A stretch of 64,000 nt of DNA, from assembly GCA_001769975.1 (NCBI GenBank), contig MEPW01000018.1, forward strand, positions 1-64,000, written 5' to 3'. This document shows positions 24,958-31,079 of the stretch, one piece after another. This DNA is from Bdellovibrionales bacterium RIFOXYA1_FULL_36_14. GTDB taxonomy: Bacteria > Bdellovibrionota > Bacteriovoracia > Bacteriovoracales > Bacteriovoracaceae. The position numbers and the translations under genes were made by a program. The first letter of the stretch is position 1. Each line of letters starts with the position of its first letter. The notes beneath the pieces are model-generated. The model ran no database searches and was not told the origin of the DNA. It saw only the letters and a program-made list of their open reading frames with translations.

Positions 24958-25347
24958 ATGGCAGTTAAAAAGAAAGCAACTAAGAAAGTAGCAAAGAAAG
25001 CAACCAAAAAAGCAACAACTAAGAAAGTTGCCAAGAAAGCAACTAAAAAAGTTGCTAAAAAAGCAACCAAAAAAGTGGTTAAGGCAAAAGTAAAACGTAA
25101 ACCAAATCCTGCGTTTATGAAACCTATGACCCCAGATGCATCTCTTGCAGTTATCGTTGGAGCAAAAGCTATTCCTAGAACCCAGATTGTTAAAAAAATG
25201 TGGGATTATATTAAAAAGCACAAGCTTCAAGATCCAAAAAACAAGAGAAACATCATTGCAGATGAAAATTTAAAAATTGTTTTTGGTGGCAAAACTACCG
25301 TAACTATGTTTGATCTTGCTAAAATTATTGCAAAACACATTAGCTAA
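24958..25347 (+). CDS. Histone-H1-like tail fused to a SWIB domain
   Basis: 129 residues in two parts. Residues 1-45 are tandem Lys/Ala/Thr units (KKVAKKATKK repeats), like the C-terminal tail of histone H1 and bacterial H1-like proteins; they probably bind DNA or RNA electrostatically. Residues ~50-129 form a SWIB/MDM2 domain: FMKPMTPDASLAVIVGAKAIPRTQIVKKMWDYIKKH, LQDPKNKRNIIADENLKIVF, and TMFDLAKIIAKHI. SD GGAGG is 5 bases upstream of the ATG, a strong site, so high expression is likely. SWIB-containing histone-like proteins occur in chlamydiae and Bdellovibrio-like bacteria. A bidirectional terminator follows. Confidence 0.9.
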   Translation: MAVKKKATKKVAKKATKKATTKKVAKKATKKVAKKATKKVVKAKVKRKPNPAFMKPMTPDASLAVIVGAKAIPRTQIVKKMWDYIKKHKLQDPKNKRNIIADENLKIVFGGKTTVTMFDLAKIIAKHIS

Positions 25348-26825: not shown

Positions 26826-26879
26826 ATAGAGCAGTGCTAAGATTAGGTCACTTTGGATATGTATCTTAAGGGAGTATTT

Positions 26880-29800
26880 GTGGATGCCAATCGATCTAAT
26901 ATGGAGCTAATTGAGTTAAAACAAGTAAGTTTTAACTCACGTTCAAATCAATCTTGGTCAGTTTATTTTTTGGGGAGTTTTTCCAATATAATATTAGCAG
27001 ATAATGGAAACCTCAAAACGGAAATTATCAATATTTTTGAACAATTCGTGCATGATGTTTTTATGGATTTTAAGACCCAAGTGGAACTCGAAGGTACGCA
27101 AATCCTAATAGGTTTTTATTTCGAGTCAAGAGAGATAAGACTGTATTCAATCAGGCTTGGGCAGGAGCTTTTTTTGTTGGAGGAGCAAACTTGTAAAAAT
27201 GCCTCTCCCTATATTCAATTAAAAAATCATGTTGGTAAAATTACCAATTTAATTCATACCCAGCACCCTTCTATGCTCGATATTGTTACTCATAAATACA
27301 CTTTGCCGGATTTTCTGGGGGATTCCAGGTATTTTGATTTGGAGTATGATTTACAAGAAATCATCATAAAATTGATGAATAATATTGATGAATATAAACC
27401 CAAGACTTTTGAAAAGGTTTTTAGTTGGGTATTTTATAAACTGGCAAGGTTACCTGATCTTAAAAACAAATTACTGGAGTATCTATTTGTCATACTAACG
27501 GTGGATGATGAAACCGGTGAGGAACTTAAAAAAAATCTTATTGAAGGGCTTTCTAATTACCAAAAAAAATTAATGAGTAACCATAAGGATAAAAGGTCAA
27601 AACCAAGGAAGAGATCCTGGTCTATTTTAAATATTATAAAACATATTTTAATTTGGATTCCTCCAACAGCTATAAAAAAGATTTCCAATGCAGTTATTAG
27701 CCGGATTGCCGGTCGATTTATTGCCAGTAACAGCATTGAAGACATTGGTAAGATTTCTTCCAGGTTGCTTGCCTCTAAAAGAGAGCTTGCCTTTGATTAT
27801 ATGGGAGAGCATTTACGAGATCACCAAAGCTGTGAAGAATTTTTAGAGAATGTTTTGAATCTGATGGATAGAATGGATTTATTCTTTCTTTCCAACGAAA
27901 CCACTAAGGATAAATTACCTCGTAAATTTATTTCGATAAAATTATCAGCGTTATCCTCCGATTCTAATTATTATGCACTTGAGGAAGCCTACAAACAAAT
28001 TGGGGTTCGTATCGTTAAAATTTTAAAAAAGGCGCTGGACCTTAAAGTGTTTGTGTGCTTCGATGCCGAACTCTACGTGAACCGCGAGATTATGCTTTAT
28101 ACGGTCGATCGAGTGTTAAAGGAGCATGCTGAATTTCGCACAATAAATTTGATAGGAGTGACTCTTCAAGCTTATTTCCGGGATAGCTTTGAGACTTTGC
28201 AAGATATTTTAAAAATTGCTAAAAAATATGAGATTGAGTTACCCATCCGTTTAGTAAAAGGAGCCTATCACGAAGAGGAAATAACCCACGCCTATTCTAG
28301 AGGATGGCCTTCCAATGTTTTTTTAAACAAGGAAGAAACAGATTTGCACTACCGTCAACTGATGGTAAAAATTTTAGAAAATTCCAGATATCTAAGATTG
28401 ATGGTGGCATCACACAATCCCCTTGATCATGCTTTTAGTGAAGTGCTTAGAAAAAAATATTTCCCCACCAGCAAACTGTTAGAGCATCAGTGCCTGAATA
28501 TGACTAACGAGTCCTTGTCACAGGCCATGGCTTTGATGAATTGGAATGTGCGTAATCATATTCCTGTGGGACCGGTATTAAAAGGACTGGGCTTTTTGAT
28601 AAGAAGGGTAATGGAAAATACTTCCCAAATCGGTGTGTTATCCTTGCTTAAGTCCTATGGAACTAAGAAAAATTTGGAAACACCCATCAAAACCCACTTG
28701 GACAAAAAGAAGAAAATGAGTATGGAGAGTGACAAGTCCTTTAGGGAACTCACTAGTGTTTTTAACAATGTTCCTGCTGTTAAAATATTCCTTAAAAAGA
28801 ATAGGGATTATATCGGACAGGCCAAAGAAAAACTGGGATTTGACGAACAATCCCCGAAATTTATAGATGATCCGGATATGCATGGAAAGATATTGGATAT
28901 TATTGGTCCAGAAAACAGTGATAAAATACTCGGAAAAATCAAGCTTGCCAAAAGCGAAGATATCTCTAAAATAATTAATGATCTCCACGAATGCTATCTG
29001 CAAGGTTCCTGGGCCACTTGTTCTGATATTGACCGAGGTACAATTATCATCAATGTAGCTAATTTATTATTAGCAAAACGACATGTGTTTGCTGCGCTTA
29101 TTTTCAAAGAAGCAGGCATTAACATCGCTGAAGCTTACCGAGAAGTTGATTATGCCATCGATTATCTTAATTTTCATGCGAGAGAGCAAATAAGATTAAA
29201 AAAGAAAAATGGAAATTTAAAATCCAAGGGAGTTATTGCGGTTTTTTCTGCTTGGAGTTCACCCCTGGCATCACTCGCATGTTACGTTTCAGCGGCACTA
29301 GTAAGTGGAAATGTGGTACTGATAAAACCGGCTATTCAAACGCCTCTTGTTTGCTACCAATTAGTATACTTGTTTTACGAGGGTGGATTACCTGAAAATG
29401 TACTTAAGTGCCTGGTACCCGAGCATAAAGATGATCTTTTCCAAATTATTAAAAATCAATATATAGCAGGGATTGCTTATGAAGGACCTTTAAATCTAGG
29501 GAAAAAATTTTATTCTATCTTTTCCCAAAAAATTATCAAAAACAATTTGTTTAATAGTGTCTTTAAAGCGGATGCCGTTTTATCTTTGGGAGGAAAAAAC
29601 GGCATGATTGTCACGGCCAGTGCTGATTTGGACATGGCAATCGGAGCTTTGTTTAATACCACGCTTTGCCGGTCAGGTCAGATGGCCAGTTGCCCCACTC
29701 GCATTATTATTGATAGAAAAATTAAAAATAAATTTATCATAAAATTGAAACAAAAATTGGAAGCGATGATTGATAGCTCACAAAATGGGCTCAGTCGAAG

Positions 29801-31079
29801 TGTTGATCCGATAATTGATAAATTTGAAAAAGAAAGACTGTTAAACGTGATTACTAATGTTAAGGAGGAAATTGCTCAATTCTCCGGAACAATTATTTGT
29901 GATCATACTTGTCGATACAAAGAACAGTATATAGGACCTTTGGTAGTGTCTCTGGATGCGTTGCGCGCCTGCAAATTTGAAAGTCTGGCCTGTAGTGAGT
30001 TATTTGGGCCGATCATCTATATAATTGAATACGATACCTTAGAAAACGCCCAACATGTTTTTAATTCAGGGGAATATGTACGTACTGGATCCATTTATTC
30101 CCAATCCTCCGAAGATGTTAAGTATTTAGTGGATCATCTTTTGGCAGGTAGTATTCATATTAACAAATATGATTTACAAACCAAGGTTGCAGTAATGCCT
30201 CAGGGCGGATTTAAATTATCTGGCACTGGTCCCAAAATAGGGGGACGGGCCCTCCTATATGCTTTTATGGTCAATTATATGAGAGATGTTGAGCCCGAAG
30301 ATTTGGAAGAAGGTCGTGGTAGTGATTATCGCTTTAGTTTAATGAGGCCATCCGGTCTGGGGATATATGGTCGATTAATGCGTTTAGAAAAGGTTATGGA
30401 GACAGTGATTCATAACTTTGAACATATATTTACTGGTATGTATGGAGAATACAAGGAAATACTTATCAAATTTAATCAATGGATAAAAAAAGATTTTATG
30501 TCTTTTCACCTTGGACCACATGAAAATTCCAAAGTGATGGGAGAAGATAATTTTAATGATTTTGAAAAATCTGGTGAGCAGGCAGTTTTTTTGGTTTATA
30601 ACCCCCAGGTGGAATTTTCTACATTTATGAGATTTTTAGGGGCGTTAGTCATGGGGGTTGGCATAACTATTATTGCCCGAAATGAAAAAGCTTTTGCTTG
30701 GTGGTCAACCCTTAAATCAATGATTGTTAAGGCCGGTATATCCAGACAAAATTTTGATGTTTTTTATCCAACGGAAGAACTACTCTATCAAGCTATTACT
30801 GAACCATGTCTTTCCTATATAATTATAGATGGCAACATTAATAAAATTGAAAAACTGTTAAAAGTCATTTTTATGGAAGAAGACAATATTTTACGGTTTA
30901 AAAAAATTCTAACCCCTCACAACGCTCCGGCACTTAGGGATTATAAGCAATACCTCTCAGAATTTGTTTGGATTCGTTCTATTTCAGTGAGCAAAAAAAG
31001 AAATGGCATAGACGTTCATCAAAGTGGAAAAAAAGTAACTGATTATAAGACTACCGAAGAGTATTTTTCGGATTTTTAG
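26880..31079 (+). CDS. PutA-like fusion: proline dehydrogenase plus inactive-looking aldehyde dehydrogenase
   Basis: 1399 residues. The first ~330 match nothing I know. ProDH barrel next (~345-590): KFISIKLSALSS, FDAELYVNRE, LPIRLVKGAYHEEEI and GFLIRRVMENTS keep the usual flavin/proline residues, so proline oxidation to P5C is likely. The ALDH domain (~780-1150) retains fold and cofactor Lys (VVLIKPA) but lacks catalysis: PWN is WSS (Ser793), the base Glu of ELGGK is Ser902 (LSLGGKNG), and the nucleophile of GQxC is Ala936 (GQMAS), 34 residues after Ser902, exactly the ALDH spacing. The last ~250 residues resemble the PutA C-terminal domain. Start GTG 26880 has AAGGGAG 5 bases upstream; ATG 26859 is the alternative. 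Confidence 0.85.
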   Translation: MDANRSNMELIELKQVSFNSRSNQSWSVYFLGSFSNIILADNGNLKTEIINIFEQFVHDVFMDFKTQVELEGTQILIGFYFESREIRLYSIRLGQELFLLEEQTCKNASPYIQLKNHVGKITNLIHTQHPSMLDIVTHKYTLPDFLGDSRYFDLEYDLQEIIIKLMNNIDEYKPKTFEKVFSWVFYKLARLPDLKNKLLEYLFVILTVDDETGEELKKNLIEGLSNYQKKLMSNHKDKRSKPRKRSWSILNIIKHILIWIPPTAIKKISNAVISRIAGRFIASNSIEDIGKISSRLLASKRELAFDYMGEHLRDHQSCEEFLENVLNLMDRMDLFFLSNETTKDKLPRKFISIKLSALSSDSNYYALEEAYKQIGVRIVKILKKALDLKVFVCFDAELYVNREIMLYTVDRVLKEHAEFRTINLIGVTLQAYFRDSFETLQDILKIAKKYEIELPIRLVKGAYHEEEITHAYSRGWPSNVFLNKEETDLHYRQLMVKILENSRYLRLMVASHNPLDHAFSEVLRKKYFPTSKLLEHQCLNMTNESLSQAMALMNWNVRNHIPVGPVLKGLGFLIRRVMENTSQIGVLSLLKSYGTKKNLETPIKTHLDKKKKMSMESDKSFRELTSVFNNVPAVKIFLKKNRDYIGQAKEKLGFDEQSPKFIDDPDMHGKILDIIGPENSDKILGKIKLAKSEDISKIINDLHECYLQGSWATCSDIDRGTIIINVANLLLAKRHVFAALIFKEAGINIAEAYREVDYAIDYLNFHAREQIRLKKKNGNLKSKGVIAVFSAWSSPLASLACYVSAALVSGNVVLIKPAIQTPLVCYQLVYLFYEGGLPENVLKCLVPEHKDDLFQIIKNQYIAGIAYEGPLNLGKKFYSIFSQKIIKNNLFNSVFKADAVLSLGGKNGMIVTASADLDMAIGALFNTTLCRSGQMASCPTRIIIDRKIKNKFIIKLKQKLEAMIDSSQNGLSRSVDPIIDKFEKERLLNVITNVKEEIAQFSGTIICDHTCRYKEQYIGPLVVSLDALRACKFESLACSELFGPIIYIIEYDTLENAQHVFNSGEYVRTGSIYSQSSEDVKYLVDHLLAGSIHINKYDLQTKVAVMPQGGFKLSGTGPKIGGRALLYAFMVNYMRDVEPEDLEEGRGSDYRFSLMRPSGLGIYGRLMRLEKVMETVIHNFEHIFTGMYGEYKEILIKFNQWIKKDFMSFHLGPHENSKVMGEDNFNDFEKSGEQAVFLVYNPQVEFSTFMRFLGALVMGVGITIIARNEKAFAWWSTLKSMIVKAGISRQNFDVFYPTEELLYQAITEPCLSYIIIDGNINKIEKLLKVIFMEEDNILRFKKILTPHNAPALRDYKQYLSEFVWIRSISVSKKRNGIDVHQSGKKVTDYKTTEEYFSDF

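Follow-up and report, generated by a model that had tools for sequence, protein, structure and literature searches.

PutA is a classic example of substrate channelling, its two active sites being those of a proline dehydrogenase (ProDH) and of a 1-pyrroline-5-carboxylate (P5C) dehydrogenase (P5CDH) of the aldehyde dehydrogenase (ALDH) type. In the type B PutA of Sinorhizobium meliloti (SmPutA; 5kf6/9c34-36/9bbo) the ProDH barrel is followed by the ALDH module and by a C-terminal ALDH-superfamily domain. SmPutA keeps the catalytic residues Asn707, Glu810 and Cys844 and needs them, and the substitution C844S disables the second reaction (PMC12398946). The type A PutA of Bdellovibrio bacteriovorus (5ur2) was solved as a 984-residue construct without N- and C-terminal domains, and its catalytic residues are intact. 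The protein described here is encoded at positions 26880-31079 of the forward strand of a 64,000-nucleotide stretch (the window; contig MEPW01000018.1) from Bdellovibrionales bacterium RIFOXYA1_FULL_36_14, a member of the Bacteriovoracaceae and of the same phylum as B. bacteriovorus. It has the domain order of SmPutA, but all three of the catalytic residues named above are replaced. Judged from its sequence, the protein is a PutA homologue that is no bifunctional PutA by activity. The open-access literature searched yielded no description of a PutA whose P5CDH module is inactive.

Loss of the catalytic residues in the ALDH module

The reading frame opens at TTG 26853 and runs uninterrupted to 31079 on the + strand. 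The preferred start is GTG 26880, which lies 5 bases after a Shine-Dalgarno-like AAGGGAG (26868-26874, +, read directly from the sequence) and gives a protein of 1,399 aa. Residues are counted from this GTG, as in the original prediction, and numbers in the TTG frame are 9 higher. The only Pfam matches in the protein were Pro_dh (5e-54) and Aldedh (4.6e-70), and both Pfam and the fold match gave the PutA order of a ProDH barrel followed by an ALDH module in a single chain. NCBIfam PRK11904 was matched with 350 bits, less than the 747 required by its equivalog cut-off. For residues 272-1399 a PutA fold was still predicted (pTM 0.83), with 5ur2 and full-length SmPutA as top matches. 5ur2 was the closest solved relative both by sequence (E 1e-91) and by fold, and SmPutA was aligned over about 1,130 columns.

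The ALDH (P5CDH) module, which by its sequence should be dead, extends from 28878 to 30272 (+). Alignment with 5ur2 and 4nm9 was ungapped at all three catalytic sites and placed Ser793 (29256-29258) at the oxyanion-hole Asn, Ser902 (29583-29585) at the general-base Glu and Ala936 (29685-29687) at the nucleophile Cys; the SmPutA counterparts are Asn707, Glu810 and Cys844. Loss of the three residues had been claimed from the sequence of the window alone, with the 34-residue spacing from Ser902 to Ala936 taken as a sign of substitution and not misalignment. Both claims were confirmed, as the same spacing of 34 is found between Glu and Cys in SmPutA and the triad columns fell where they had been predicted. 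PutAs were then compared across the family, collected and aligned from 129 Bacteriovoracaceae genomes (drafts). The triad was lost only in the window genus (the window genome and Bdellovibrionales bacterium RIFOXYC1_FULL_37_79), in a sister genus represented by the metagenome-assembled Bacteriovoracaceae genome G022, where the three positions are His, Leu and Leu, and in the genera g46/g19 (G085, G086 and G019). Asn, Glu and Cys were all intact in 109/109 PutAs of other genera with all three columns readable (41 genera). Misalignment was ruled out by the exact spacing together with these 109 intact sequences. A sequencing or frame error was also ruled out, because the same three substitutions are carried by the second species of the genus (88% identical).

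The changes in the module are not restricted to the triad. Altogether, 44 of 95 sites that are near-invariant in the family were altered, compared to a median of 0 and a maximum of 6 in intact members. The NAD-binding loops of the ALDH Rossmann domain were not retained, as the signatures KsAEq, GxGxxVG and FTGS were replaced by KPAIQ (with Ile for the Glu of KPAEQ), PEHKDDLF and YEGP. The cofactor Lys (VVLIK) was correctly described as kept, and the Glu and Phe of ELFGP are kept with it in the window genus, but both features are lost in the sister genus. It had further been pointed out that a Cys lies two residues after Ala936. Cys938 is indeed present, but it sits at a column occupied by Ala in intact PutAs and is Ala in the sister genus; it is therefore no conserved replacement, and it was rejected as a substitute nucleophile.

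With its fold kept (as predicted), its triad lost and the gene under purifying selection, the module has the features of an ALDH pseudoenzyme, and from its sequence it is almost certainly inactive and conserved as such. Human ALDH16A1 is a comparable case, in which the whole Cys/Glu/Asn triad was lost from an ALDH fold that is retained by selection (PMC10650815). ALDH16A1 differs in belonging to another ALDH subfamily, in having no ProDH fusion and in having no link to a second, active P5CDH. The original prediction also proposed that the module senses NAD. A sensor of NAD or of an aldehyde, with catalysis lost and ligand binding kept, would fit the remaining cofactor Lys and ELFGP residues and the predicted retention of the fold. 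It is nevertheless very improbable, because the NAD-binding signatures have been rewritten and the cofactor Lys is lost in the sister genus, and the NAD-sensing proposal was not borne out.

Constraint on the gene and origin of the loss

Between the window species and RIFOXYC1_FULL_37_79, dN/dS over the entire gene was 0.048. Domain by domain, it was 0.119 in the N-terminal domain (82% identity, the lowest conservation in this pair), 0.038 in ProDH, 0.030 in the ALDH module (91% identity) and 0.027 in the C-terminal domain, all to be read as relative values. For the same pair, stand-alone P5CDH and ProDH genes, described below, gave 0.070 and 0.106 and eight flanking genes 0.036-0.136. On these figures purifying selection on the gene is strong, and the gene is not decaying. 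Decay of a redundant ALDH half in a gene on its way to being lost was considered in view of G019, G085 and G086, in which the ALDH has degraded so far that it is not easily recognised and the C-terminal domain has been truncated or lost, a pattern resembling relaxation. For the window genus such decay is hardly credible, as both species keep an intact 4.2-kb frame and dN/dS is lower for the dead module than for the functional P5CDH.

Identity between the window protein and that of the sister genus was 55% for the C-terminal domain, 45% for ProDH and 37% for ALDH. Among 3,639 inter-genus pairs of intact PutAs, there was none in which the C-terminal domain was at least as identical as ProDH or ALDH. 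The order of constraint is thus inverted, from which it follows that whatever now maintains the protein is no longer centred on its catalytic pockets. The C-terminal domain (30273-31079, +), which shows the strongest conservation in the dead clade, is the ALDH-superfamily-like domain of type B/C PutAs. A profile search against PDB sequences gave chance matches only; the domain was identified by fold search, its predicted structure aligning with full-length SmPutA. The type B/C motif at its end was not retained, RSFAVNTMRHGAPL of intact family members being RSISVSKKRNGIDV in the window protein. In SmPutA this motif and the contact of Tyr473 (Tyr540 in E. coli PutA numbering) are present, and both are replaced here.

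The N-terminal domain (26880-27722, +) comprises about 280 residues, predicted to form an alpha/beta part plus a helical bundle. No significant PDB relative was found by profile search or fold search, in agreement with the observation that the first ~330 residues match nothing known. The domain is however not peculiar to this protein; it is found, with an invariant core, in PutAs of the whole Bacteriovoracaceae family, and SmPutA has no counterpart of it. No Pfam match to a ribbon-helix-helix DNA-binding domain, as expected of type C (trifunctional) PutAs, was found in the N-terminal region.

In a tree built from ProDH and C-terminal columns only, the window clade was nested within intact PutAs (g39, g47, g61; SH-aLRT 99), and g46/g19 were placed at the base of the family. 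A minimum of two losses follows from these positions, and on this sequence evidence the loss of the ALDH is derived and occurred twice, once in the window genus with its sister genus and once in g46/g19. A tree of ALDH columns alone grouped the five degenerate sequences, which was read as long-branch attraction. The PutAs of G019, G085 and G086 have about 1,200-1,266 aa, with a strongly degraded ALDH, a shortened or absent C-terminal domain and a separate P5CDH in the genome. ProDH residues in this clade were normal where readable (G086 and G019). These PutAs are an independent reduction towards ProDH, a simpler outcome than that in the window genus.

Stand-alone proline enzymes and the altered ProDH half

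Passage of P5C to another enzyme had been suggested as a consequence of the dead module, and a search for a separate P5CDH did identify an enzyme that could take P5C. The window genome has five ALDH-family genes, one of which, on contig C51, matched TIGR01236 with 733 bits (cut-off 613.6); its neighbours are a gene for a LysR-type regulator and a further aldehyde dehydrogenase gene. The latter (L181:6405-7859, -) directly follows the P5CDH gene and is nearest to alpha-ketoglutaric semialdehyde dehydrogenase models, though under their cut-off (516 of 770 bits). A TIGR01236 P5CDH was found in 5 of the 129 family genomes, and all five have a degenerate PutA-ALDH. A naive Fisher test of this association gave p 4e-8, which stems from two independent clades only and hence from a small sample of losses. 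P5CDH is common beyond the family, with 69/369 genomes of the phylum positive, 64 of them outside the Bacteriovoracaceae, and the P5CDH tree did not distinguish a single source for the window genus and g46/g19 from separate sources. A stand-alone ProDH of 307 aa with canonical Lys, Tyr and Arg-Arg motifs was found on contig C7. Among the 129 genomes an intact gene of this kind was restricted to the window genus, the only other hit, in G084, being weak and 286 aa long. From their sequences, stand-alone enzymes encoded at other sites of the window genome thus appear to be able to catalyse both proline steps.

The ProDH half of the PutA-like protein (FAD barrel and flanking helices, assigned by Pfam, 27723-28652, +) was found to have kept its key residues. 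Lys354, Asp395, Tyr463, Leu539, Arg575, Arg576, Glu310 and Glu579, equivalent to Lys329, Asp370, Tyr437, Leu513, Arg555, Arg556, Glu289 and Glu559 of E. coli PutA, are retained in the window species, in RIFOXYC1_FULL_37_79 and in G022. The catalytic and carboxylate-binding residues (Lys329, Asp370, Arg555 and Arg556) are thereby all present. Tyr540 and Tyr552, which pack against the proline ring (PMC10651016), are not: their equivalents are His560 (28557-28559), which is Ser in the sister genus, and Phe572 (28593-28595). His464 (28269-28271) replaces the Trp438 equivalent. The other PutAs of the family have Tyr, Tyr and Trp at these positions (112/112 each). Including these three, 38 of 106 near-invariant ProDH sites were altered. 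The landmark motifs of the barrel were thus rightly noted in the original prediction, but the barrel is far from unchanged.

Two alternative explanations turn on this half of the protein. According to the first, both halves are pseudoenzymes and the protein is a regulator, a scaffold or an FAD-bound structural protein acting through its C-terminal domain. This would fit the ProDH identity of 45% between the two dead genera, compared to 71-81% between intact sister genera, as well as the 38 changed sites, the separate ProDH with canonical motifs and the shift of greatest conservation to the C-terminal domain. Total loss of catalysis would however be expected to hit some of the ProDH residues, and the retention of Lys, Asp, both Arg, the gate Glu and the Tyr437, Leu513 and Glu559 equivalents in three species makes this explanation unlikely. 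According to the second, the ProDH half is a dehydrogenase of hydroxyproline or another substituted proline, with the stand-alone P5CDH accepting its product as an enzyme common to both pathways. In E. coli PutA the selection of proline over hydroxyproline is imposed by Tyr540 (Ostrander et al. 2009, as cited in PMC3718742), and it is this residue that became His in the window protein and Ser in G022, the sixth degenerate genome. A normal ProDH would cover proline in the window genus. By analogy only, the arrangement resembles human HYPDH/PRODH2, a ProDH relative beside a normal ProDH with one shared P5CDH (PMC13155685, PMC8779045); in vertebrates P5CDH is common to proline and hydroxyproline breakdown (PMC8779045). 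HYPDH is monofunctional and eukaryotic, unlike the window protein. His also differs from the known substitution, no P5CDH was found in the sister genus, and neither PF05544 (hydroxyproline epimerase/proline racemase) nor PF01081 (KDPG/KHG-type aldolase) was found in these genomes. A hydroxyproline dehydrogenase is for these reasons quite improbable.

Proposed role of the protein and its genomic setting

The favoured explanation, given a probability of roughly 0.6, is that separate enzymes took over the P5CDH step, and in this case perhaps both steps, and that PutA was kept as a pseudo-P5CDH scaffold. The P5CDH half would have become a pseudoenzyme because its reaction is done elsewhere. Proline would be oxidised by the stand-alone ProDH and then by the stand-alone P5CDH, while the ALDH and C-terminal domains of PutA would hold shape, dimer or partner contacts in a large scaffold. 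The altered ProDH barrel, in which the catalytic Lys and Asp, the two Arg and the gate Glu are retained, probably still binds FAD. Its specificity has probably changed, with some proline-like compound as the likely substrate, and its product would be released rather than channelled.

Several points weigh against this explanation. In G022, which is 95% complete, neither a P5CDH nor a second ProDH was found, and outsourcing therefore fails for that lineage. Three ProDH pocket residues are changed in a barrel whose activity is predicted only. The scaffold role of the C-terminal part is inferred from its conservation, and the partner is hypothetical. Furthermore, dS is saturated (about 1.5), and the window genus is known from two species only. 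A tentative alternative is that PutA was repurposed as a whole once its two reactions had passed to the stand-alone enzymes, which would have relieved both catalytic halves of their former task. It would now be selected either for a role centred on the C-terminal domain, in assembly or in binding to a membrane or a partner, or as a flavoenzyme with a new substrate specificity.

No match to proC (P5C reductase) was found in the window genome, which is 86% complete, and the window organism is possibly a proline auxotroph. A second pseudo-ALDH, AstD-like, is encoded at G000:C38:23821-25338 in the window genome; in the window genus and in G022 it has lost Asn and Glu and kept Cys. The AstD-like proteins of G087 and G142 have lost Glu, Cys and the PFN motif, that of G055 has only Asn changed to Asp, and those of nine other genera sampled are intact. 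dN/dS for this gene was 0.027 in the window genus pair. The genes flanking PutA encode an unknown protein, a BtpA family protein, a PLD-like protein, a glycosyltransferase, UDP-galactopyranose mutase and a SWIB protein, and no link to proline was found among them. The SWIB/MDM2-domain protein (129 aa, 24958-25347) lies two genes upstream of PutA. SWIB/MDM2 domains are mainly eukaryotic or chlamydial.

With the second active site lost twice, each time with a free-standing P5CDH except in G022, the Bacteriovoracaceae provide a natural test of whether PutA can do without channelling. That a dead copy is conserved in the window genus raises the question of non-catalytic roles of the ALDH and C-terminal domains of PutA.

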